Source: Siphonodentalium dalli
Lineage: Eukaryota; Mollusca; Scaphopoda; Gadilida; Siphonodentaliidae
Assembly: GCA_032622095.1 (NCBI GenBank)
Contig: CP136066.1
Coordinates: 91,161,319 to 91,225,318 of the forward strand
DNA: 64,000 bases
Reading direction: 5' to 3'
The translations under genes were made by a program, and so were the position numbers. Position 1 is the stretch's first letter. Every line of letters starts with the position of its first letter. Below the pieces are notes generated by a model. The model ran no database searches. It was not told where the DNA came from and worked only from the letters and a program-made list of their open reading frames with translations. Shown one piece after another: positions 389-55,530 of this stretch.

Positions 389-536
389 CATCTTGTGACA
401 TGCCTACATCCAGACATTTCTTGTATCGACATGCTTTACACAGATTACGTGTCATTGTGCTGATTTTGCAGTTATCATCTTTTGTACATACATATCTGCT
501 TTGCTGTCGCTCCTTAACCATTCTACGGAAAAATCC
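389..536 (-). CDS. 2DBD-NR: 2DBD-NR exon 4: second zinc finger of DBD2
   Basis: The acceptor TTTTCAG (AG at 538-537) opens in phase 0, so exon 3's CEGCK continues as GFFRRMVKER. The second finger has the canonical pattern: C, 5 residues (TKDDN), C, 9 residues, CxxC, then CRYKKC and the LDVGM motif that follows the DBD core. Residues 241-289 are encoded. A strong donor (G|gtaagt, gt at 388-387) ends the exon in phase 1 after SQD. The next exon (hinge or ligand-binding domain) lies outside the window. This is the most conserved and least ambiguous exon of the locus. Confidence 0.95.
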
Positions 537-12246: not shown

Positions 12247-12402
12247 CCCTTCAATGACTGGAGCTTCATGAAATGTTGCGAAAACCCTGTAAGTGCATTC
12301 TCTTATATATGCAAGACTCTCTATGTGAAACTCGCATATATAAGAGAATGCACTGGCACAGGATATTTAATGCTGCAACACGCAGCTCCTGTCATGAAAG
12401 GG
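12247..12402. mobile_element. piggyBac-like MITE
   Basis: TTAA on both sides (12243-12246, 12403-12406). Ends are CCCTTCAATGACTGGAGC and GCTCCTGTCATGAAAGGG. The centre has the TATATAAGAGAATGCACTGGCACAGG hairpin arm pair. Confidence 0.85.
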
Positions 12403-12920: not shown

Positions 12921-13898
12921 CTCAAGCTTCAAATGGAACCACGTTCTGCATTGGTCACATCCAATACTTTGATTCTCATGACAAGCTGGACATGACTTAT
13001 GACCGATACCACGTACTAGGATAACGTTTGGAAGACATGGTGATTAAAAGTGATTGACAGTTAAACAACTCAATGATGTGCGATTAACAAGGGGACGGTG
13101 TAAGCCTTAGTTTATAATCCCCTCCCGAACCATGACCTAGTATATGGCCACAAATCGGCTATAGACCGAGCCCAACCCCCCCTTTTTCCATAGGAAGGGG
13201 AACCACTGACACTGACAATTATCAGGTCGCAAGGAATCTTGCACTTGATGCCTGAATAAGATGTGATCAGTAGCACATGTTAGGAGACATAGATAAAAGT
13301 TCCCCAATGGTGAATATTGTGATGTACACCCATTGGGAACCTCGATTATGCAATGTATCGATTATGCAATTATGCAATGGCTACTTTTCAGTGACAAATA
13401 TCCAAATTTTCTCCTGCCAAATTGTGTGTTTTCCCCTGACAGAAACCCTAAATTAACATCTATAACAAATAAACCATTCCACCTTTATATTCCATTAATT
13501 TTAACTTGTGTTCATTTATGTTCATTGACTTGTGTTCATTTATGTTCATAGTTTAGTAGGAATAAGGAATCAGGAAAGAGTGATTTATTTTGCAATAATA
13601 CGGAACAGGTCCCAAATACATGTGAGTCTGTATAGCATGAACTCATAGTGATATTAACACCAGTCATTGCAGCCATAACATGCATTGAGGATAAACGCAA
13701 AAAATATCCTCAATATGGCGACAAGTCAAAGTAGAGTCAATGACAGTTTTGTTATCCCGCCTGTAGCCCCCAGCACAAATGCATAAATAACGACGCACAT
13801 GTTCACATTTTCCCACCAAAACAGATACACCCTGCAAAAAATCACTGTAAAGCAGCTGTCCTCACCATTAACTCAAGTATTGAGCGATCGCGACTTAT
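12921..13898. other. Intron 3 interior, mostly unrecognised
   Basis: It contains a fragment of the hAT-like family around 13297-13375 (CCCAATGGTGAATATTGTGATG...CCTCGATTATGCAATG). Otherwise I see no gene or element ends. Confidence 0.45.
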
Positions 13899-13932
13899 TC
13901 TCCGCACACACTCGACAAGGGATGTTGGCTAT
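13899..13932 (-). pseudogene. Truncated duplicate of 2DBD-NR exon 3, copy D
   Basis: The minus strand reads ATAGCCAACATCCCTTGTCG AGTGTGTG, the 5' half of exon 3 (I-A-N-I-P-C-R-V-C codons), then diverges. It carries the same CGA arginine codon as copy B and is followed by the same spacer type. Confidence 0.7.
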
Positions 13933-13987
13933 ATGCACCTCCCCAATCTATCCTCACCCAAAGATGATTAAAAATGAGAGCCACATG

Positions 13988-14200
13988 CAGTAATGCCCTA
14001 AATAATCGACTCCTTAACCACAGCAGAATTATGGGTAATTTTTCAGGATTTAGTCGGAAATATGGCTTGTTGCCATTCACCGGAAAGCTCTCAGTGAGAG
14101 CTTTCCGATGAATAGCAACAAGCCATATTTCCGAATAAATCCTGAAAAATTACACATAATTCTGCTGTGGTTAAGGAGTCGATTATTTAGGGCATTACTG
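13988..14200. mobile_element. Palindromic TA-MITE copy 3 (full length, 213 bp)
   Basis: CAGTAATGCCC...GGGCATTACTG with TA on the right and TG (one change from TA) on the left. It sits at the splice-donor position of pseudo-exon copy C. Confidence 0.92.
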
Positions 14201-14203
14201 TAC

Positions 14204-14276
14204 CTTACAACCTTCACATGTTAATGGTAGCCAGAAAGGGCGCTCCACACACTCATCATCAAAGGATTTTGGCTAC
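14204..14276 (-). pseudogene. Decayed duplicate of 2DBD-NR exon 3, copy C
   Basis: This matches exon 3 with small deletions and several stops (TGATGATGA where the first cysteine codons should be). The 3' end is well kept (ACATGTGAAGGTTGTAAG) and is followed by gta, after which the sequence becomes the TA-flanked palindromic MITE (13988-14200). Spacer-like CACAT resumes on the far side of the MITE. The MITE therefore inserted in the duplicated splice-donor sequence (gTAtgtg). Confidence 0.8.
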
Positions 14277-14320
14277 ACTGCATCCACACCCCAGATAGGG
14301 TTATAAATTATAGCATGTCC

Positions 14321-14341
14321 TTTACAACCTTCATGTGTGTA
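14321..14341 (-). pseudogene. Truncated duplicate of 2DBD-NR exon 3, copy E
   Basis: Only the last ~21 bp of the exon (T-H-E-G-C-K codons, with the same Cys-to-His change as copy A) and the shared spacer remain. The rest is replaced by a piggyBac-like MITE remnant starting with CTTTCATGATGGGAGC. Confidence 0.65.
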
Positions 14342-14432
14342 CTCTTTCATGATGGGAGCTGTGCTGGTGCAACATTAAAGATCCTACAGGTGCTATAGTG
14401 CATTCTCTTATATATGCGAGTCTCCCATAGGG
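14342..14432. mobile_element. piggyBac-like MITE remnant
   Basis: It begins CTTTCATGATGGGAGCTGTGC and contains CATTCTCTTATATATGCGAG; the right half is missing. It interrupts the exon-3 duplicate array. Confidence 0.65.
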
Positions 14433-14455
14433 TTATAATATATGAAAGCACGATT

Positions 14456-14530
14456 CTTACAACCTTCATAAGGCTCCAAATTGTAGCCAGACAAGGGAGC
14501 TCCACACACTCGACAAGGGATATTTGCTAC
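14456..14530 (-). pseudogene. Decayed duplicate of 2DBD-NR exon 3, copy B
   Basis: This is the copy with the fewest disabling changes: the frame runs through CRVCGAP-LSGY. Two deletions (1 nt and 5 nt) sum to a multiple of three, so the frame recovers at the E-G-C-K codons. One zinc-ligand cysteine codon falls in the deleted part. No GT follows the lysine codon (aagaatcg), so the ancestral donor is lost. It starts about 140 bp from copy A. Confidence 0.82.
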
Positions 14531-14595
14531 AACCCATCTCCACAATCTAACCCCCCCCCACCCACCTGGAGAGGGTTATAAATGAAAGCATGTAC

Positions 14596-14670
14596 TTTAC
14601 AACCTTCATGTGTTAAGGCTCCGAGCCAGATGATGACGCTCCACACACTCAACAAGGGATGTTGGCTACA
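14596..14670 (-). pseudogene. Decayed duplicate of 2DBD-NR exon 3, copy A
   Basis: Read on the minus strand this matches exon 3 from the IANIP codons to the final lysine codon. Differences break it: the arginine codon after the first cysteine is TGA, the TATCATTTT stretch of the Tyr-His-Phe codons is shortened, and the third zinc cysteine codon (TGT) reads CAT. A GT follows the lysine codon (gtacat), so a weak donor survives. It lies in the same orientation as the true exon. About 65 bp of related spacer (AGGGTTATAAATGAAAGCATG) separates neighbouring copies. Confidence 0.85.
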
Positions 14671-14708
14671 CCACATCTCCACAATCTATCCCCCAACCCC
14701 AAACAGAT

Positions 14709-15314
14709 TTAACGAGAGGCCGATCACGATCGGCAGATGTTTAACCCATACCTTGGCGATAGCGACTAGCCATAACTGATAATTTGTCAGATATTGATAT
14801 CATTATATTACATGAAACTATTGCAATAAAATCTTCATATTTTCAAAACAGGATATCACACCTAATTAATCGTATAAAACTAAAATAAATGAAAGTGTCA
14901 AATTTTTTTTATTATTTAATTTTTTTTTTATTGTTATTAAAGTTCAAACAAAATTTAATATTTGTATATGCTAAATTTAGCAAGGAGCTAAATCTAAAAA
15001 AAATTGATTTTTTTTTTCTTTTCCTTTTTCTCGAAAAAGGGTCATAACTCCTTTAAAATTAATCGGATCAAACCCATATTCGGACTCGATCTGTATTTTG
15101 GGCTGTGAAAAAATGTTTGAGTTATGGCAGAATGCGTGAATTCTAAGTCGAAAAAGGGCCATAACTCTGTAACAAAAACTCGGATCAAACCCAAATTCGA
15201 ACTCGATCTGTATTTTGGGCTGAGAAACCCATATACAATTTGGTTTCGATCGGATAGAAAATGTTTGAGTTATCGCATTACTCGTAAAGTGTCTACGGAC
15301 AGACAGACAGACGG

Positions 15315-15352
<38 letters not shown>

Positions 15353-15420
15353 GAACGACGAGTGGTCAATCCGGGCAACGACACTATGTTTACCATACTA
15401 TGGTATGGGTAAACATAAAA
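14709..15420 (+). mobile_element. ACAG-microsatellite element with terminal hairpin (short copy)
   Basis: Starts GAGAGGCCGATCACGATCGGC; body repeats CATAACTC...TCGGATCAAACCC...TGTATTTTGGGCTGAGAAA; then a (GACA)n microsatellite, CGACGAGTGGTCAATCCGG and the hairpin ATGTTTACCATAC/GTATGGGTAAACAT (15386-15416). Longer relatives are at 32344-33830 and 54313-55530. The hairpin end is 17 nt from the exon 3 donor. Confidence 0.75.
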
Positions 15421-15434
15421 ATGAAAACACATAC

Positions 15435-15547
15435 CTTACAACCTTCACATGTTAAGGCTCCAAAATGATAGCCAGACGAGGGTGCTCCACACACTCTACA
15501 AGGGATGTTGGCTATCCCAGCTTCCTTCATAGTCTTCTGACCTGAAC
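15435..15547 (-). CDS. 2DBD-NR: 2DBD-NR exon 3: inter-DBD linker and first zinc finger of DBD2
   Basis: The acceptor is TTACAG (AG at 15549-15548), phase 1. A second AG six bases further (15543-15542) keeps the frame and would remove two residues (Gly-Ser). The exon encodes residues 203-240: a short linker, then CRVC, 13 residues (GYHFGALT core) and CEGC, with lysine at the boundary. CEGCK followed by GFF in exon 4 is a canonical P-box. The donor is AAG|gtatgt (gt at 15434-15433), phase 0. Five decayed copies of this exon lie 0.8-1.6 kb downstream in intron 3. The terminal hairpin of an ACAG-type repeat ends 17 nt beyond the donor. Confidence 0.94.
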
Positions 15548-15836
15548 CTGTAATAATTAATATATGAATTATATAAGAATAAGTTTGCTCATATAAAAGC
15601 AATCATTCTGTAAAAATTGATTGAAGGGCATTGATTAGTTTAATTATGTCATATGACATCCAACCTATATGCCAATTTCCCACCAAATTATATGAAAGCA
15701 ATAAGCAGCATGAGTAGTGCAGAACCGATAAATGGAAATTGAACAAGAGCAAGCTCTCAATTTTGGGAGTGCGCAATACTAAATATTTGTATGGATAGAA
15801 TGTTTTTTTTATTTTCTGAGTATCCTTTCCCCTTAA

Positions 15837-16720
15837 CACGTTCACTGCCACTATGAGTTAACTCGTAGTAAATGGTTCCATGGGGACTGCTACTACGAGT
15901 TAACTCACAGTAATGCTCATACCACATAAATAATAACACAAACCGCAAGCAATGTTGGTATATGCGCCAATACATGCCCAACGATCCCATTGATCGATTT
16001 TATATGTATAATTACGATGGCTTGAGATACAACGATTCCCACAGCCCGAACAAGGGGTGGGGTCCAGTTAGAAATCTTGGTAGGATACTCCAATTCACCA
16101 GGACCTCTTCTGTACGTCCCTAAACCATGATATACATGTGCAACTAGACCATTCCCGGACACATTGTGCATATATAAAGGAATTATCGTGCTTTATACAA
16201 TTTTTGTCGATCAAATCCGGGTCAAATGAAAGATGAAACGTGTTATAAAGCTCCTACAAGATAACTCATAGTCGGCACCTGGGATGAAACTCACCAGTGG
16301 TCATCCCTGGTGCCAGCTACGAGTTATCTCGTAGGTAAATACATATTATGTTTTTTGACGTCTTATTCAACGTAGTCTGTACCAATTATCATATATAAAT
16401 TCATTTACCATGTCTTACATACGATATGCTTGTACATGTATAGCACTCTTCGTCATCTAAGACACTGACAACGTAATTGTATTTACCTACGAGATAACTC
16501 GTAGCTGGCACCAGGCATGAAACACTAATAAATTCCGTCCCAGTTGCCGACTACGAGTTATCTCGTAGTAGCCTTATAACATGTTTCAGCATCATATGAC
16601 CCGATATTGGTCGAACCTTTACTCATACATATGTAAAATATCATCTACTATCAGCAAAACATCAAATCCCATGTTGGCATACGGGATGGAATTACCCATT
16701 GGTTTTCAGCAGTAAACGTG
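15837..16720. mobile_element. TTAA-flanked element with six CTACGAGTTATCTCGTAG palindromes
   Basis: TTAA at 15833-15836 and 16721-16724; ends CACGTTCACTGCC and GCAGTAAACGTG. The 18-bp palindrome CTACGAGTTAWCTCGTAG or a close variant occurs near 15850, 15890, 16255, 16318, 16488 and 16550. The two middle copies lie in a larger inverted repeat (GGTGCCAGCTACGAG). The layout is piggyBac-like and noncoding. Confidence 0.75.
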
Positions 16721-19226: not shown

Positions 19227-19368
19227 CTGGAGGGTACATTTTGAGTTGCATACATTTCTGATAACGACAGAACTGACACTGCACCCTGCTCTCCTTCGTT
19301 ATCATACATTTTTGATCCCTTAGACAAAGGAACTTCTTCTCCTGCTTTGATGCTCTCATGTAAAATTT
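19227..19368 (-). CDS. 2DBD-NR: 2DBD-NR exon 2: second zinc finger of DBD1
   Basis: The acceptor is a T-rich tract ending TTTTTCAG (AG at 19370-19369). The exon starts in phase 0 and encodes residues 156-202 plus one base. It begins KFYMRASK, where most receptors have GFFRR, then gives a second finger with correct spacing: C, 5 residues, C, 9 residues, CxxC, followed by the CRYQKC hallmark. It ends MYPP plus one base of glycine, then a gtgtgt donor (19226-19221), phase 1. It joins in frame to exon 1 upstream and exon 3 downstream. A repeat-element hairpin ends only about 15 nt into the intron beyond this donor. The atypical KFY motif with CEACK matches the divergent DBD1 of known 2DBD receptors. 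Confidence 0.93.
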
Positions 19369-25992: not shown

Positions 25993-26524
25993 TTTGCATG
26001 CTTCACAAACAAAAGCTCCGCAGTAAAAACCAGAAGCAATGTCCCCGCAAACTTGGCAAATTGTGTTCAGGTTATGTTTTTTTGCCTTCTTCGTGGGAGA
26101 ACAACTATTGTTCGTTGTAGAAGAAACATCATATCCAGATCCAGCAAATAAATCAGAATGCTCGTCATTGTAAGTCAAATCTGTAGGTTCAGTTTCCGAG
26201 AAATTAAACTTCACTTTCTCCTTATGATAGCCAAAGCTTGAATCCTTCTCAGCATAACGACACGATGATGAGTAATCCTTCTCCTCCTTGGGTATAAACA
26301 ATGGGTGATTTGACATACCACCGCCGAAGGACAATGCATCTTTCTGCCCCCTGTTAAATGGTCCTTGGCTGTCAATGTCACTAGACCACTGATAGCCATT
26401 TGATACCAAAGAACGTTTGCCGACACTCAAAGTCATACTGTTATTGTCAGGTGACATCCGCAAGGTATATGAAATATATCATATACATGTATGTCGGCAT
26501 GCATCAGTATCTGTATCGAGACAC
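25993..26524 (-). CDS. 2DBD-NR: 2DBD-NR exon 1: 5'UTR, N-terminal region and first zinc finger of DBD1
   Basis: A polypyrimidine tract plus CAG acceptor (AG at 26526-26525) opens the exon, so at least one further upstream exon is likely. An in-frame stop (26481-26479) precedes the chosen ATG at 26457, making the upstream part untranslated. Coding sequence runs 26457-25993, 155 codons. The first ~120 residues are polar, Ser/Gly/Asn-rich and without a recognised domain, as is usual for an A/B region. A basic stretch (SPTKKAKKH, about residues 121-129) could be a nuclear localisation signal. The first finger follows: CQVC, 13 residues, CEAC, then K155. The P-box CEACK is atypical for most receptors but typical of the first DBD of 2DBD receptors. 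The exon ends in AAA followed by a strong gtaagt donor (25992-25987), phase 0. Confidence 0.93.
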
Positions 26525-32343: not shown

Positions 32344-33077
32344 AGAATAACGAGAGGCTGATCACGATCGGCAGATGTTAACCCATCCCTTGGTGATAGT
32401 AAATTACTATCATCGGAATCATAAATGAGAGTTTTGATGTTGAATTATAGAGTATACTGTTATGTACTGGTACAGGATATGTAATGCTGCACCACCACAG
32501 CCTTGGGTTAAATGTGAAAAGGTGACCTGGACATGGAATACTTGGGTTAAGAGAGTCCAATTTAAGTTTACAATGATAATGTATCAAATTCTACCAACAA
32601 CAGCCAACAACAATTATATAGCAGAGCTGTCAACAAATCACAGGGCATTGTTTATGTTGAAGGCTGGCATCTCTATTAAACCAATAACATTTATAATGAC
32701 CTCAGACCATCTGTAGAGTGATATACTAATGTTAATATCATGCGATGTGTATTGATGAAACTTTTTTAAAAATTAGATACCATAGCTTTCTTTATCAGCA
32801 TATTGGCATAAGAGACATCAGAAAATAATATAGCCTTATCAATAGCTAAGCAGTCCAAAGGCATGGGATGCAATTGGTGAATTGGGTTTAATGTCGCTCC
32901 AAACAAATTTACCAGCACATAACACAAGTTTTTGGACCGATTTAAACCAAATTTGGTGTGGTTACTCGGGTACCCTAGGCAGAGTTATAATGGTGTTAGT
33001 TTTTCAAATTTTGTTAACTTTAAAAAAATATATATATATTATTATTTAAAAACAAATATTTTATTATATTTTAGGTT

Positions 33078-33112
<35 letters not shown>

Positions 33113-33830
33113 TTTTTTAAGAGTGAATATTTTTTCGAAAAAGGCCCATAACTGTCATGTAATTACCTATACATCAACTGGAAACCCCACTAGATTCATA
33201 CCGTTTGAATCAAGGACCAATAACAATAATCATATCAACTAACACATGGAACGTTAGACCTGAATAGCAGACGCTCAGCCCTCCAAGGACCTCACGTGAC
33301 ACGTCCAAGACGAACACCGATTATCATACAATGAAGCACCACCTCCAAATATGGTTGTGGGACACTACCATAACAGAAGAACCAATCCTGAGGTGTATTA
33401 CCAAAGTACCTCATTTAATATGCACCCCAAATAGTATATGAGACACCACGATTCACTAACAAAGTATGCTTACTCAGTTCCATCTTGAGTGTCTATATCT
33501 ATAGAGCATCCCCTCTGACTATTCAGCGACATTATATACATTACATGTGTATTATCAGATTGATTCAACTCATATACCTATCTATGTGTTGCTTTACATA
33601 ACATAACTCAGTTAAAAATAGTCGGATCAAACCCATATCTGTCTTTTGTGCTGAGAAATCCATATACAAAATTGGGTTCCGATCAGATAGAAAATGTTTG
33701 AGTTATCTCACCATGCGTAAAGTGTCTACGGACAGACAGACGGATGGACAGACTAACGACGAGTGGTCAATCCGGACGACGGACGTTGACACTATGTTTA
33801 CCATACTATGGTATGGGTAAACATAAAAAT
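32344..33830 (+). mobile_element. ACAG-microsatellite element with terminal hairpin (long copy)
   Basis: Shares with 54313-55530 the start GAGAGGCYGATCACGATCGGC, GATGTTAACCCATCCCTTGG, the middle GGACCGATTTAA..CAAATTTGGTGTGG, and the end (GACA)n, CGACGAGTGGTCAATCCGG and hairpin ATGTTTACCATAC/GTATGGGTAAACAT. It includes a (TTTA)n stretch. Frames here are not conserved between copies. Confidence 0.75.
33076..33117. repeat. (TTTA)n microsatellite
   Basis: About ten uninterrupted TTTA units. Confidence 0.95.
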
Positions 33831-35694: not shown

Positions 35695-35853
35695 CCCGTT
35701 CATGACTGCAGCTTCCTGAAATTTTTCGAAAACCCTGTGCCAATGCATTCTCTTATATATATGAGGCACCCTATGGGAGATGCACATATATAAGAGAATG
35801 CACTGGCACAGGGTCTTTAAAGCTGCACCAGCACATCTCCCGTCATGAAAGGG
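35695..35853. mobile_element. piggyBac-like MITE
   Basis: TTAA at 35691-35694 and 35854-35857; ends CCCGTTCATGACTGCAGC and TCCCGTCATGAAAGGG. Confidence 0.85.
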
Positions 35854-36610
35854 TTAAACGCACACAGACATGGGAGAGAATTCTTTTGTTATTTTGTTTT
35901 GTGGACATATGTGACACTTCACAAGTAAGCCCTTTAGAAGGTCTATATAACATAATTAAGGGTTTGCGTCATTACATTATATAGATTCGCGCATTATACA
36001 TGTACGTCAGTTGTAAAACCCGTAATTTGGTGCGTCCACAACTTACAAGTATAAGCACATATATAAGAGAATGCACTGGCACTGGGTCTATAATGCTGCA
36101 CCAGCACATCTCCCGTCATGAAAGGGTTGAACGCACACAGTGATACATGGGAGAGAATTCTTTTGTTATTTTGTTTTATGGACATATGTGACACTTCACA
36201 AGTAAGCCCTTTAGAAGGTCTATATAACATAATTAAGGGTTTGCGTCATTACATTATATAGATTCGCGCATTATACATGTACGTCAGTTGTAAAACCCGT
36301 AATTTGGTGCGTCCACAACTTACAAGTATAAGCACATATATAAGAGAATGCACTGGCACTGGGTCTATAATGCTGCACCAGCACATCTCCCGTCATGAAA
36401 GGGTTGAACGCACACAGTGATACATGGGAGAGAATTCTTTTGTTATTTTGTTTTATGGACATACATGTATGTGACACTTCACAAGTAAGCCCTTTAGAAG
36501 GTCTATATAACATAATTAAGGGTATGCGTCATTACATTATATAGATTCGCGCATTATACATGTACGTCAGTTGTAAAACCCGTAATTTGGTGCATCCACA
36601 ACTTACAAGT
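35780..36610. repeat. Tandem triplication of ~280 bp
   Basis: The block CACATATATAAGAGAATGCACTGGCAC...ATTCGCGCATTATACATGTACG repeats with periods of 277 and 283 bp. The longer period is due to a CATACATG expansion. Near-identical reading frames in successive copies (36230-35994, 36513-36271) are by-products. Confidence 0.85.
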
Positions 36611-40712: not shown

Positions 40713-41691
40713 TTGGAATGACATTCCAGACATACTACAACCCTGGGAATGTCATTCTGGATATACCATGACTCTGGCAATGACATTACAGACATACTAT
40801 GACTCTGGCCATGACATTCCAGACATACTATGACTCTGGCCATGACATTCCAGACATACCATGATTCTGGCCATGACATTCCAGACATACTATGACTCTG
40901 GCAATGACATTCCAAACATAACATGACTCTTGAAATGACATTCCAGTCATATAACCACCCAGGCAATGACATTCCAGACATACCATGACTCTTGCAATGA
41001 CATTCCAGTCATACAACCACCCAGGCAATGACATTCCAGACATACTGTGACTCTGGCAATGACATTCCAGACATACTATGACTCTGGCAATGACATTCCA
41101 GACATACTATGACTCTTGCAATGACATTCCAGACATACTATGACTCTTGCAATGACATTCCAGACATACTGTGACTCTGGCAATGACATTCCAAACATGC
41201 TATGACTCTGGCAATGACATTCCAAACATGCTATGAATCTGGCAATGACATTCCAGTTATACTATGACTCTGGCAATGACATTCCAAACATTTATGCATA
41301 CTACCACACTGGAATGACATTCCAGACATACTATGACTCTGGCAATGGCATTCCATGACATTTTGCATACTATGAATCTGGCAATGACATTTATGCATAC
41401 TACCAGACTGGATTGTCATTCCAGACATAATATGACTCTGACAATGGCAATGACATTCCAAGACTCTTGCAATGACATTCCAGTCATACAACCACCCAGG
41501 CAATGACATTCCAGACATACTGTTATCTCTGGCAACGACATTCCAAACATGCTATGACTCTGGCAATGACATTCCAGACATACTATGACTCTGGCAATGA
41601 CATTCCAGACATACTATGACTCTGACAATGACATTCCAAACATACGATGACTCTGGCAATGACATTACAAACATGCTATGAACAGTTTGGC
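40713..41691. repeat. 31-bp minisatellite, main block
   Basis: About thirty units of CATACTATGACTCTGGCAAT GACATTCCAGA with CCACCCAGG and other variants. Frames through it are open because the unit has few stops. Confidence 0.95.
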
Positions 41692-42020
41692 ACTGAAAGG
41701 GTTAAGAAAGTTATAGATATAAAAGATACAAAAAGATGCACAGTTCGAAGTAATTATATAGCATATATATAGTGGCAAATTTATCATGAAAATATTGGTT
41801 TTTTGGTTATTTATTTTGGTGATTTTCCTATTACATTATGTTTGGTTATTTCTTCGGAGAATTTCCCACTACAGCAAGTCTGAGTTTAGTGTGCTTGTCA
41901 TTTGCAGAATGAGGTCCCCAGAGGGTGAATTCAGTGAATGTATGCGGGATAGCATCACTAAATTCACCCTCTGGGGACCTCATTCTGTGACAGGCACACT
42001 AAACTCAGACTTGCAATCGT
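41692..42020. mobile_element. Composite insertion in the minisatellite
   Basis: Begins with the right end of a piggyBac-like MITE (TTGGCACTGAAAGGG-TTAA), then the duplicate block also seen at 37918, ending with a short hAT-like element (41875-42013). Confidence 0.8.
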
Positions 42021-42652
42021 AATGCTATGACTCTGGCAATGACATTCCAGTCATACAACCACCCAGGCAATGATATTCCAGACATACTGTGAATCTGGCA
42101 ATGACATTTATGCATACTACCACACTGGAATGACATTCCAAACATACTATGACTCTGGCAATGGCATTCCATGACTCTTGCAATGACATTCCAGTCATAC
42201 AATCACACAGGCAATGACATTCCAGTCATACAACCACCCAGGCAATGACATTCCAGTCATATAACCACCCAGGCATTGACATTCCAGCCATACTATGACT
42301 CTGGCAATGACATTCCAAACATGGTATGACTCTGGCAATGACATTCCAGACATACTGTGAATCTGGCAATGACATTTATGCATACTACCACACTGGAATG
42401 ACATTCCAAACATACTATGACTCTGGCAATGGCATTCCATGACTCTTGCAATGACATTCCAGTCATACAATCACCCAGGCAATGACATTCCAGTCATACA
42501 ATCACCCAGGCAATGACATTCCAGTCATACAACCACCCAGGCAATGACATTCCAGTCATACAACCACCCAGGCATTGACATTCCAGACATACTACGACTC
42601 TGGCAATGACATTCCAAACATGGTATGACTCTGGCAATGACATTCCAAACAT
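42021..42652. repeat. 31-bp minisatellite, third block
   Basis: Same unit as 40713-41691. A higher-order segment (42025-42190) recurs at 42290-42470 with the same variant order. Confidence 0.92.
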
Positions 42653-43054: not shown

Positions 43055-45600
43055 TTATTTTTTACTTCTATCATTCAAGGAATATGTGTTTAGAGTTTCA
43101 ATTCTTTTATAATATTTAAAAAATTCAAGAAGTCCATTTATAGTTGGGTTGGTAGCCCTCATCTTACATGAGTATATAAATTTTCTATACAGCATTGTAC
43201 AGATATCAAGGGTATCATTGGGATGTATATCTCCATGCATACCTAGGACAGTATACTCTGGTTTTAATTCGAATGTAATATCACACTTTTCTTTTAACTT
43301 ATGTTGGAGTTGAAGTAGAACTGATTTTGAAATGGGGCAATCCCAAAAGAGATGTATAATTGTTTCTTTCGTGTTCCCACAAAAAGAGCATAATTCTGTT
43401 TCTGACAGTTTACACTTGAATAATTTTGAATTTGTATAAAGTATGTCTTGATTAATTTTGTATTGAAAACTTATCAGGCCAGTATCATCTGTGATATGAT
43501 ATGGGTTCCTATATATTTGTTTCCAATCCAAATCACATAAAGCTATTCCAAGTCTATTAGACCATTTTTTTTGTATGTGGGAAGGTATTTCAGCATATTG
43601 TCTAAGAATAATTGGGTAAAAAATCTTACATGGTGTTAAGGCATTCCCGAGAATTTCTATTTTTTCTTTTTTAATTGATTCAAGTTTCTCACTATTTCTC
43701 AAACATGCTCTCCATTGGGATGGTATCGCATTCAACAGTCCTTGATAGTGTGTGAAAGGAATTTGTAAATTATAAGTGCTACAGAATGATGGATAGTCTA
43801 AGAGTCCACCATCATCAAGTCATTTATAAAAAATACACCCTGCTTTATCCATTTAGTGTTTAAGAGCATATGATTGTCTATTTTTATATATTTATTCCAA
43901 TAAATGGATTGGGATTGGATGTCTTGTGGGGCTGTGCTGATATCTTGATCTACCAAACTCCAAGCCTGTATAACGCTTTTCCAAAATGGATTAACTTTAT
44001 TTGCCATAATAGTCAGTGCTTCATTTTGAAAGAACGAAAACTTTTGGACCACCAAAGGGCTCCAAGTCATCTAAGATTATATTTTTCCAGCTGGCATTAT
44101 TGGAAGTGTCTAGCAATTTTTGTATCCAGGTCATTTTTAATGCATTTGCAAACGAGTCAATATGTGGAAACTTCAAGCCTCCGTTTTCAATTTCATTTAT
44201 TATAACATTACGTTTAATTTTATCTTTTTTTCCAGACCATAAAAAGCGATAAAAGATTTGTTGGATTTTTAGAGATGTGTCTTTTGAAGGGGGAGGTAGT
44301 ACTGATAGACAGTGAATTAACATTGGAAGTGCAATAGTCTTTATTACTGTTGTTTTTCCAGTAAGACTTAGTTGTCTGAAGGACCAGTCATTCAGTAGAT
44401 TTTCTAGCTTTTTTATTTTTGTCTTGTAATTATTTTCAATGTAGTCGTCATTGAAGAGGTTGAATTCAATACCAAGTATAGTGACCGAATTTGAGTGATT
44501 CCATAGGATATTTTCTTCTGTTGGAATTTCTTCACCACAGCCCCGTTTCGATCCAATCCATAAGACTTGAGGTTTTTGGAAGTTTGCTTTTAGTCCTGTT
44601 ATCTTTGCGAAATTTCGGACTGTATTAAGGGCTTCGTTTAATGAGTGTGAGTCATTCCTGAGGAAGAGGTTCATGTCATCTGCATATTGTGAGACCATGT
44701 ATTCAGTTTTGTTAATTTTTATCCCGTTTATATCTAAATTATTTTTTAAAGATGCGAGTTTCTACCGCTAAAATAAACAGGTAAGGAGAAAGTGGGTCAC
44801 CTTGTCTTACCCCTCTATGTATATCTATCTTGTTAGATAGGTTTCCGTTATTGACAATATAACTGAAAATATCTGTATAAAAGGTTTTTACCCAACCGAT
44901 GATATCTGGTCCAAATTTGTAAAATTTTAAACAATTTTCTAAATAACTCCATTTTAAGGAGTCAAAAGCTTTTTCAAAATCAAGTAGTACTAGTAATCCA
45001 GGTATATCTCTTTGCTCGCATTTTTCTAATAAATCAAATGTAAGCCTTGTTGATTCCCCAATGTAACGCCCTGCTAGAAATCCAAGTTGTGAATCTGCAA
45101 TAAGTTTTGGGAGGACTTTCTTTACCCGATTAGCAATATTAACTGTTGATCCAATTTTAACATCAACATTGAGAAGCGAAATAGGCCCTCCAATTTTTAA
45201 TGTATTCTTTAGGTTTATTGGGTTTTGGCAGACATGTTATAATTCCACATCTTTGCGTGACTGATAATTTTTGTGTACGAAAACCATAGTTCAATGAGTT
45301 AACAACAAATTGCCCCAGATCTTTCCAGAAAAATTTGTAGAATTCTGCTGTATATCCATCTGATCCTAGGGATTTTTCATTTTTTATCTTTTTTAATGAT
45401 GCTGTGCATTGTATTCAGTTAGTTGTCCCTCCAAGGATTCAGTTTCTTGCGTATCCAAGAAATTCAGAAAAGGGTTTTCAACATCAAGAAAATTATTTTC
45501 TTCATCTCCAGCTGTTGGTTCAATCTTTGATTCATATAGATTTTTGTAAAAATTGTGTTGTTCTTCAATTATGTCAGAAAGTTCGGTTATTTCAGATCCA
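43055..45600 (-). pseudogene. LINE reverse transcriptase remnant (ORF2)
   Basis: Conserved pieces in order on the minus strand: IIEEQHNFYKNLYES (before the RT core), the ALKKIKNEKSLGSDG region, the catalytic motif QYADDMNLFLR near 44690, GLKANFQKPQVLWIG, SVTILGIEFNLF, NGGLKFPHIDSFANALKMTW, and a C-terminal CSFCGNTKETIIHLFWDC cysteine-histidine motif (~43390). These fit LINEs of the L1/Tx1 group. Frames change near 44030 and 43810, and stops interrupt 44700-45390, so it is inactive. The endonuclease domain is lost by 5' truncation. Confidence 0.92.
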
Positions 45601-45610
45601 TCACTTTTAA

Positions 45611-46492
45611 GACATTCCAAACATGCTATGACTCTGGCAATGACATTCCAAACATACTATGACTCTGGCAATGACATTCCAGACATACTATAACTCTGGC
45701 AATGACATTCCATGACTCTGGCAATGACATTCCAGTCATACAACCACCCAGGCAATGACATTACCGACATACCATGACTCTGGCAATGACATTCCAGACA
45801 TACAACCACCCAGGCAATGACATTCCAGTCATACAACCACCCAGGCATTGACATTCCAGACATACTATGACTCTGGCAATGACATTCCAAACATGCTATG
45901 ACTCTGGCAATGACATTCCAAACATACTATGACTTTGGCAATGACATTCCAGACATACTACAACTCTGGCAATGACATTCCATGACTCTGGCAATGACAT
46001 TCCAGTCATACAACCACCCAGGCAATGACATTACCGACATACTGTGACTCTGGCAATGACATTCCAGACATACTATGACTCTGGCAATGACATTCCAGAC
46101 ATACTATGACTCTTGCAATGACATTCCAGTCATACAACCACCCAGGCAATGACATTCCAAACATACTGTGACTCTGGCAATGACATTCCAGACATATTAT
46201 GACTCTGGCCATGTCATTCCAGACATACTATGACTCTGGCAATGACATTCCAGACATACTATAACTCTGACAATGACAGTCCACGACTCTGGCAATGACA
46301 TTCCAGACATACTGTGACTCTGGTAATGACATTCCAGTCTTTCCAGACATACTATGACTCTGGAAATAACATTCCAGTTATTCTATGAATCTGGCAATGA
46401 CATTCCAGACATACTATGAATCTGGCAATGACATTTATGCATACAACCACACTGGAATGACATTCCAGACATGCCACAACCCTGGGATTGAA
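45611..46492. repeat. 31-bp minisatellite, block right of the LINE
   Basis: Continues the same unit after the LINE; about 28 units, including a repeated higher-order segment (45660-45760 resembles 45930-46030). It ends near GACATGCCACAACCCTGG. Confidence 0.95.
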
Positions 46493-50342: not shown

Positions 50343-51344
50343 TCTTCTAATATATATTTTGGGACTTCTGTTTGTTTGTTTGTTTGTCTGTTAGCTATGG
50401 CCGGGAAAACTGCCAGACGGATTTTGACAAAATTTGATACCTAGGGTTACTTTTGGCCAGGGAGTGTTTTGGACGGGTCAAATCGTGACTACGACCTGAC
50501 CTTGACCTTCAAAAAGGTCAATTCAAGGTCAAATCGGGTAAAACGTGGGACGGATTTCGACGAAATTTGATACCTACAGATACTTTTATTCGGGGAGTCT
50601 TTTGGATGGGTCAAATCGTTACCCTGACCTGACCTTGACCTTCAAAAAAGTCAATTCAAGGTCAAATCGGGTAAAACGGATGGATTTCAACGAAGGGTAC
50701 TTTTGTCCGGGGAGTGTTTTGGACGGGCCAAATCATGACCCAGACCTGACCTCCCTTACATTTTCGCAGTGTACTTAACAAGCTTCTCGAGCAGTAGAAA
50801 CGGATGAGCAACGTGACCGTCGACTCGAGTCTAATACAGTTCAAACACAAGCTTCTCGAGCGGTAGAAACGGATGAGCAACGCGACCGTCGACTCAAGTC
50901 TAATAGAGTCCAAACACAAGCTTCTCGAGCGGTAGAAACAGACGAACAATGCGAACGTCGAATAGAAACAGAGACAAATAGGTCTTTTAATGATCGACGA
51001 CGTCGAATAGAAACAGAGAGAAATAGGTGTTATAATGATCGACGTCATCAGCGTGATGGTGACCAATGGATGGAGGCCGCCTTTGCCTACTTACCTCATA
51101 TAGATTACCAGTTATCCCCTGCCGTGCAGATTGGCGCCATGGCAGTCATCTGTCCTCGGTGTGAGACACTCAAATGGCCGGGGGAATCGCCTGGTATCTG
51201 TTGTGTAAGTGGCAAAATTGTACTCGAGAATTTCGAAGACCCGCTGGGCCGATTTCCACCATTTTTGGGGTGTTGGTGAGTTAAAACATAACTATAAAAA
51301 AAACAACACAACGACTCTCCCCGTCAGGACGGGTACCCAGCTAG
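50343..51344 (+). mobile_element. Nonautonomous Helitron (about 1.0 kb) with own-gene fragment
   Basis: The 5' end is TCTTCTAATATATATTTTGG after host A; the 3' end is hairpin CCCGTCAGGACGGG, TACCCAG, CTAG (51341-51344), then host T. The body holds GGTCAAATCGGGTAAAACG units and a Helitron protein fragment. It shares its 5' terminus with 58835 and 59237, and a diverged one with 11594. Confidence 0.85.
50779..51279 (+). pseudogene. Helitron Rep-helicase N-terminal fragment
   Basis: An open frame follows a stop at 50776-50778. It contains ~23-residue Arg/Glu/Gln-rich repeats (AVETDEQRDRRL theme, three copies), then AAFAYLPHIDYQLSPAVQIG, GAMAVICPRCETLKW and GESPGICCVSGKI, ending at TGA 51277-51279. 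The CxxC...GExxGxCCxxGK arrangement after Arg-rich repeats is typical of the region before the Rep domain in animal Helitron proteins. The Rep and helicase domains are deleted; the frame runs almost straight into the 3' hairpin end. Confidence 0.78.
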
Positions 51345-54312: not shown

Positions 54313-55530
54313 TGTAACGAGAGGCCGATCACGATCGGCAGATGTTAACCCATCCCTTGGCGATAAAAATTTAATATGATCGGATAAATGAGAGTTTTGG
54401 TGTTCAATTATAGAGTATACTGTTATGTACTATTATAGACAAATGTACATAACACAAATTATTGGAATTTATGGGTCACTGGCATTTATATAAGAGAATG
54501 CACTGGTACAGAATATGTAATGCTAAACCGCCACAGCCAGCAAGCCCATGGGTTAAATGTGTAGGTGTGACCTGGACATGGAATCCTTGGGTTAAGAGAG
54601 TCCAATTTAAGTTTACAATAATAATGTGTCCTAGTATACAGATAAGCAACCTCACCACTGACCCATTAATATCAATTATATAGCAGCACAGATGTCCATG
54701 TCTACTGTTAATAGCATGTGATGTTTATTGTTGAATCTTTATTTTAAATTAGATGCCATAGCCTTATGTATCAGATTATTTGCACATTGGCATAAGTCCA
54801 AAGGCAATTGGTGAATTGGATTTAATGTTGCTCCAAACAGATTTACCAGTACATAACACAAGATTTTGGACCGATTTAATCAAATTTGGTGTGGTGATTC
54901 GGGGTACCCTTGGCAGAGTTATAATGGTGTTAGTTTTTCAATTTTTTTTAACTTATTTAAAAAAATTAAAGGGACACATTGGAAATCTTTTTATCATAAT
55001 CATCAATATCTAAATGAAAACAAATGACAATGTCAATGACATTTTTTTTATTATTATTATAAAAGTTAAAAATAATTTTTTTTAAAAATCGATTCAATTT
55101 TTCAATTTTTTTTCGAAAAAGGGTCATAACTCCTTTAAAATTAATCGGATCAAACCCATATTCGAAATCGATCTGTATTTTGGGCCGAGAAACTCACATA
55201 CCAAATTTGGTTCCGATCAGATAAAAAATGTTTGAGTTATGGCAGAATGCGTGAATTCTAAGTCGAAAAAGGGCCATAACTCTGTACAAAAAAGTTGGAT
55301 CAAACCCATATTCGAACTCGATCTGTATTTTGGGCTGAAAACCCCATACACAAAATTTGGTTTTGATCAGGTAAAAAATGTTTGAGTTATCGCATTACAC
55401 GTAAAGTGTCTACGGACGGACAGACGGACGGACAGACGGACGGACAGACGGACGGACGAACGACGAGTGGTCAATCCGGACAACGACACTATGTTTACCA
55501 TACATGGTATGGGTAAACATAAAAACGTAG
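54313..55530 (+). mobile_element. ACGG-microsatellite element with terminal hairpin (long copy 2)
   Basis: Start GAGAGGCCGATCACGATCGGC; middle GATTTAATCAAATTTGGTGTGG; two CATAACTC..GGATCAAACCCATATTCG units; (GGAC)n; CGACGAGTGGTCAATCCGG; hairpin ATGTTTACCAT/ATGGTATGGGTAAACAT. Homologous to 32344-33830 and 14709-15420. Confidence 0.75.

Follow-up and report, generated by a model that had tools for sequence, protein, structure and literature searches.

What are the exon-like sequences that lie behind exon 3 of a nuclear receptor gene in this window (the window being the whole 64-kb stretch of DNA analysed), were they ever exons, and what has become of them? A sequence-only reading had seen in them "repeated attempts at exon duplication", in a receptor which itself arose by duplication of its DBD.

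The host receptor gene and the copies of exon 3

With splice sites assigned by eye, exons of the host gene have been placed on the reverse strand of the window as listed in Table 1. From their order, strand and phase, both C4 zinc-finger DBDs would lie on one transcript; on the predicted exon joins, the Pfam family zf-C4 (PF00105) is matched by DBD1 with an E value of 3.2e-21 and by DBD2 (exons 3 and 4) with one of 6.5e-28. Exon 3, which encodes 38 residues and fits exon 2 in phase, is preceded by ...TTATTACAG and followed by GTATGT. The P-P module EACKK-EGCKG marks the 2DBD-NRA group (PMC10497141, PMC1810520), and the host gene carries both P-boxes, with CEACK/K in the first DBD and CEGCK/G in the second (slashes here and below mark splice junctions or their equivalents); judged by these motifs, it is a nuclear receptor of the 2DBD-NRA type. 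The accessible portions of those two papers, however, mention no exon array, the words "intron" and "exon" being absent from PMC10497141 and occurring once each in PMC1810520. The receptor gene continues past the window start beyond exon 4. Further copies of the exon 1 tail, of exon 2 and of exon 4 were also sought in the 64-kb window, with self-matches only at E 0.1. The intron just upstream of exon 3 contains an imperfect inverted repeat of about 400 bp (16207-16614, 74%) with TACGAGATAACTCGTA-like motifs, and a short inverted repeat at 15850-15911 resembles it.

Table 1. Exons of the receptor gene, copies of exon 3 and inserted elements in the order in which they are met along the gene; limits of the copies are approximate.
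Feature	Position	Strand	Remarks
Exon 1 (at least open frame)	25993..26478	(-)	Finger 1 of first DBD; ends CEACK
Exon 2	19227..19368	(-)	Finger 2 of first DBD; phase-1 end, as exon 3 requires
Exon 3	15435..15547	(-)	Finger 1 of second DBD; P-box CEGCK/G; unit 0 of the array from nt ~31 onward
Helentron-like non-autonomous element (HINE), 711 bp, between exon 3 and copy A	14711..15421	(-)	Both ends recur elsewhere
Copy A with preceding spacer	14572..14710	(-)	Arg codon replaced by an in-frame stop (TGA); 7-nt deletion; donor place AAA/GTACAT
Copy B with preceding spacer	14429..14571	(-)	24-codon open frame; third zinc-binding Cys gone; donor GT gone (AAG/AATCGT)
Dispersed repeat, ~100 bp, between B and E	14341..14440 (limits approximate)	(-)	Relatives at 12321, 22590, 35768, 47810 and 48526
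Copy E	14290..14338	(-)	3' fragment: P-box end, donor region, intron start; nearest to A
Copy C, exon-like part to AAG/GTA, with spacer	14201..14298	(-)	In-frame stops; donor split by MITE, intron start resuming at 13987
Palindromic MITE, 213 nt, in the donor of C	13988..14200	(-)	Arms of 106 nt, 96% complementary
End of the intron part of C, spacer, copy D	13905..13987	(-)	D a 5' fragment, truncated after GTGTGTG
Exon 4	389..536	(-)	Finger 2 of second DBD; putative donor

Downstream of exon 3, and sharing its strand, are five partial copies, which follow one another as A, B, E, C and D. Their local alignment scores against the 113-nt exon are 105 for A, 112 for B, 87 for C and 52 for D, each of which was reached by none of 1000 dinucleotide shuffles. 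Copy E scores just 26, equalled by 6 of 1000 such shuffles, and it is counted as a member of the array because of its match to copy A (score 75, with 0 of 2000 shuffles as good). Over unit and spacer together, identity to exon 3 is 80% for A, 79% for B, 80% for C, 74% for D and 70% for E. When the window outside 13850-15600 was compared as 3542 stretches of 141 nt (both strands, 35-nt steps, the DBD1 exon included), the best score was 30. An nhmmer profile made from exon 3 and copies A, B and C, which recovers those four by construction, found D at 3.5e-8 and E at 0.0088, followed by the DBD1 exon at 1.4 and a stretch at 41927 at E 8; thus neither alignment nor nhmmer gave any other clear match to the exon 3 copies within the 64-kb window. 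The earlier claim of five exon-derived copies downstream of the exon, sharing one orientation and a spacer, is borne out by these alignments, which lie far above chance. A match between the second half of exon 3 and 55581-55481 was considered and dropped, since under stricter scoring it starts at 55525, which is the end of a HINE. Scans of viral_contigs gave 0 matches to the motif of the copies and 0 to the 3' end of the HINE.

The copies are variously broken. Read in the phase of exon 2, copies A and C contain stops (the first in A being the TGA at the Arg codon) and D breaks off and then meets a stop. Copy B, described earlier as nearly in frame, is indeed open in that phase over 24 residues, but has lost the third of the zinc-binding Cys residues as well as its donor GT. 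Where at least three copies could be compared (64 columns), all copies differ from the exon in two columns, both synonymous in the exon. In one, the Arg codon is AGA in the exon, CGA in B and D, and TGA in A and C; in the other, the Ala codon is GCA in the exon, GCG in A, C and D, and GCT in B. The most likely reading of these codons is that CGA is ancestral, that the exon moved to AGA by a synonymous change and that in A and C the CpG decayed, leaving TGA. The CGA common to B and D, which had been correctly noted, would then be a retained old state and so uninformative on the common descent of these two copies, and its use as a mark of that descent is reversed.

Six columns hold changes found in no copies but A and E (B is blank in three of these columns), among them the Cys-to-His replacement, TGT to CAT, that had already been noticed in this pair. 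Two further columns unite A, B and E, and one A, B, E and C. Conflicting shared changes are found in four columns for A and C, two for B and C, and two for B and D; the branching order of the copies is therefore not clean.

Mobile insertions and the spacing of the copies

The element that separates exon 3 from copy A has two ends which are found again, in unchanged order, at 55525..54316 and 33829..32349. Its parts include a subTIR GTTTACCCATACC, an inner IR GGTAAAC, a microsatellite of GTCT or GTCC (GTCY), central repeats which are 86% alike, a 3' subTIR GGTATGGGTTAAAC and a 3' palindrome GCCGATCGTGATCGGC; the latter forms a 6-bp stem, yet a fold equally good or better is given by 28 of 200 shuffled versions of the 65-nt end. 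All three HINE copies start with TTTTTATG and sit in a T-rich target, with no shared flank repeat visible by eye. To judge from the available part of its description, Cg_HINE of the Pacific oyster (PMC7492417) likewise has subTIRs, an inner IR, a GTCY microsatellite, inner repeats, a 3' palindrome and a T-rich insertion site, a likeness of structural parts. Going by these repeats, the host animal would be a mollusc, probably a bivalve. The two HINE copies outside the array, also on the reverse strand, have the same orientation, and their inner right halves are alike to each other and missing from the HINE in the array.

The palindromic MITE in the donor of copy C is flanked by a TA target-site duplication, of which the right side now reads CA. 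It has many matches in the window; TA stands beside at least one end at 8 of the 10 other places listed, and clearly beside both at 5 of the 10. Three 277-bp tandem copies (96% matches) at 35782-36610 also contain relatives of the repeat that separates B from E. The insertions would be later than the duplications, to judge by their place inside the units; no clock enters into this ordering.

Elsewhere in the window, broken reverse-transcriptase frames at 43055-45236 (-), with Pfam matches to zf-RVT and RVT_1 (two matches to the latter, one of them below cut-off), belong to a decayed retroelement flanked on each side by 31-bp minisatellites. A 31-bp unit, GACATTCCAGACATACTATGACTCTGGCAAT, makes up three large arrays at 40717-41681, 42025-42647 and 45611-46472, in which higher-order periods are seen, among them 62, 93 and about 270 bp. 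A frame at 50779-51279 (+) contains 23-residue repeats, QASRAVETDEQRDRRLESNTVQT, with a weak Pfam STPRs match below cut-off.

The copies had been placed directly downstream of the exon. They are downstream and on the same strand, but copy A is 846 bp from the equivalent point of exon 3, with the HINE in between. When HINE and MITE are taken out, the steps are 135 bp from exon 3 to A, 139 bp from A to B and 129 bp from C to D, while the step from B to C, containing copy E and the dispersed repeat, is 254 bp; the irregular spacing of the copies is thus due to the later insertions. About 115 bp of the array has probably been lost at the dispersed repeat between B and E.

Joining the two flanks of the HINE (15 nt of intron start and 36 nt before A) gives a sequence that scores 43 against the A-B spacer and 42 against the C-D spacer, where the joins at the other two HINEs score 12-18. 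Against a recut C-D spacer the score is 46, and neither 43 nor 46 is reached when the join is shuffled as a whole (0 of 2000). When the left flank alone is shuffled, 256 of 2000 (A-B) and 33 of 2000 (C-D) do equally well, so that the right flank gives most of the joined score; the homology of the left flank is clearer in the alignment of the copies than in this test. Against the E-C spacer the joined flanks score just 21, and the other HINE joins 17 and 10.

Limits of the repeated unit and competing explanations

Similarity to exon 3 starts at about nt 31 (..TAGCCAACATCCC) and crosses the donor into the intron (..TTTCATTT). The copies accordingly cover at most nt ~31-113 of the exon plus intron, with D and E being fragments, and the earlier picture of copies of the entire exon has to be given up. 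Past the donor, the exon continues as GTATGTGTTTTCATT, A as GTACATGCTTTCATT and C, with the MITE removed, as GTATGTGGCTCTCATT; the donor of C is then restored to AAG/GTATGTG, its seven intron bases identical to those of the living exon. This homology into the intron means that DNA was copied, not spliced RNA. Together with the derived changes that copies have in common and the confinement of the array to one place in the window, it upholds the proposed origin by tandem duplication. GT is present at the donor place in two of the four copies that reach it (A and C, as had been reported, and not B or E).

More turns on the other end of the unit, where a G-rich spacer lies upstream of the exon-like start in each of A, B, C and D. 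If the exon had been duplicated whole, the copies would once have had acceptor, exon and donor, and perhaps served as alternative P-box exons, and the spacer would be a decayed acceptor and exon 5' end. Some observations do lean that way. Against the exon 5' end, scores of 18, 5, 19 and 8 are obtained for the spacers preceding A, B, D and C, and these scores are equalled by 322, 2698, 378 and 6170 of 17728 window stretches; in a separate test, 45, 149, 20 and 1374 of 2002 window stretches equal the exon 3 5' end in its fit to the same four spacers, so that those of A and D fit it better than about 98-99% of window stretches. Besides its open frame in the phase of exon 2, copy B has CCCTCTCCAG/G, which resembles an acceptor and stands 36 nt ahead of the TAGC, near the 33 nt found in exon 3. 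The fit of the spacers is, however, little above what composition gives: 81, 688, 167 and 880 of 2000 shuffles score as well (again A, B, D and C), as do 32, 210, 43 and 182 of 460 composition-matched stretches. An exon 5' end copy diverged by 20% would be expected to score 32-67 (95% of 500 simulations), where the spacers score 5-19. A profile of the four spacers recovers the spacers themselves, but up to E 1000 it has no match at 15562-15515, where the exon 5' end lies. None of the four copies with a 5' side (all but E) is preceded by the opening ~30 nt of the exon, and an acceptor-like CAG occurs in B alone, the spacers before A, C and D showing by eye no CAG with a pyrimidine tract at the acceptor place.

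From the low scores and the lack of a profile match, the spacer is most likely old intron sequence from behind exon 3, and the unit would run from about nt 31 of the exon to about 50 nt into the intron. The acceptor, most likely, was duplicated in no copy, though the resemblance of the A and D spacers and the CAG of B leave some room for a decayed one. Whole-exon duplication is accordingly judged unlikely. With a unit that most likely starts inside the exon, the copies would never have been usable or complete exons, and the "repeated attempts at exon duplication" find no support in spacers that score so low against the exon 5' end and its acceptor. That the copies are the dying remains of once-working alternative P-box exons in a 2DBD receptor seems very improbable; were it so, a single receptor could have exchanged the helix with which its second DBD recognizes DNA, and relatives may still do so.

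Two further explanations bring in the mobile elements or the splicing of the receptor. A mobile element or satellite might have captured a piece of the exon, the array being part of that element: three mobile elements are interleaved with the array, and the Pacific oyster HINEs contain tandem repeats, according to the portion of PMC7492417 at hand. The HINE here, however, stops before copy A starts; the relatives of HINE, MITE and ~100-bp repeat in the window have no adjoining exon-like match; and the real exon stands in register with the array. Transposon capture, which the sequence-only reading had named as the finding that would count against it, was not encountered within the 64 kb, and we consider such an origin very improbable. 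It is no more credible that the copies function now, as spare donors or as poison exons tuning the splicing of the receptor. The GT at the donor place of A and C and the open phase and acceptor-like CAG of B would suit such a role; against it stand the stops in A and C, the loss of donor and zinc ligand from B, the fragmentary state of D and E, and the breaking up of the array by mobile elements.

The array has very probably arisen by intragenic tandem duplication across the donor site, followed by decay and insertions, with copies that were never complete exons. A segment of about 135 bp, reaching from within exon 3 across the 5' splice site, would have been tandemly duplicated several times within intron 3, and with a first breakpoint presumably inside the exon, no copy would have received a 3' splice site. 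The copies would then have drifted as intron sequence, presumably neutrally, to a distance of 20-30% from the exon, acquiring stops and frameshifts and losing donors. Differences at codon positions 1, 2 and 3 number 11 of 92, 8 of 90 and 16 of 88 (third against first and second together, Fisher p 0.08), and this lean toward third positions is a weak hint against pure neutrality. At a later time the HINE would have come to lie between exon 3 and A, the dispersed repeat between B and E, and the palindromic MITE in the donor of C.

Relation to known duplications and meaning of the array

The process as such is ordinary and known; what is found here is an old and decayed record of it, well kept. 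Tandem exon duplications have been described, unannotated ones within introns among them (Ivanov and Pervouchine, PMC9013439). As far as the available part of that paper goes, its cases are like the present one in having exon-like tandem copies beside the parent, on the same strand and in the same gene, which are found by exon similarity; here, in contrast, the copies are decayed, lack the first ~30 nt and most likely the acceptor, and are known from sequence alone. Because a whole exon with its splice sites is lacking, we call the array a decayed intragenic tandem duplication across the donor and not an exon duplication. Tandem genomic duplication across an exon-intron boundary is also a model of intron gain, with the potato RdRp gene as a case (PMC4974935, in the part available). 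There too the duplicated stretch spans an exon-intron boundary of a coding gene, but the boundary is that of intron 1 and exon 2 and a new intron resulted, whereas in the present gene it is the donor end of exon 3 that was repeated, within intron 3, and there is no sign of a new intron. The 10-kb intragenic duplication described from the dmrt1 gene of a fish (PMC7605655, likewise seen in part) was considered as a parallel and is not close. Among the literature matches listed, the titles and opening lines of abstracts report no such array in a 2DBD receptor.

The array has no bearing on the origin of the two DBDs. Wu et al. ascribe the extra DBD to a likely recombination event in an ancestral 2DBD gene (PMC1810520, available portion); the proposed tie between the exon copies and the DBD duplication of the receptor comes down to a shared place, with nothing found that joins the two events. 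Exon-like matches of this kind in introns can mislead exon predictors. The copies also preserve codon states which the living exon has lost, namely CGA and probably GCG, and the living exon beside the array serves as an outgroup to them. The locus can thus be read as a history, in which a duplication across a splice donor was followed by decay and by break-up through three different mobile elements.
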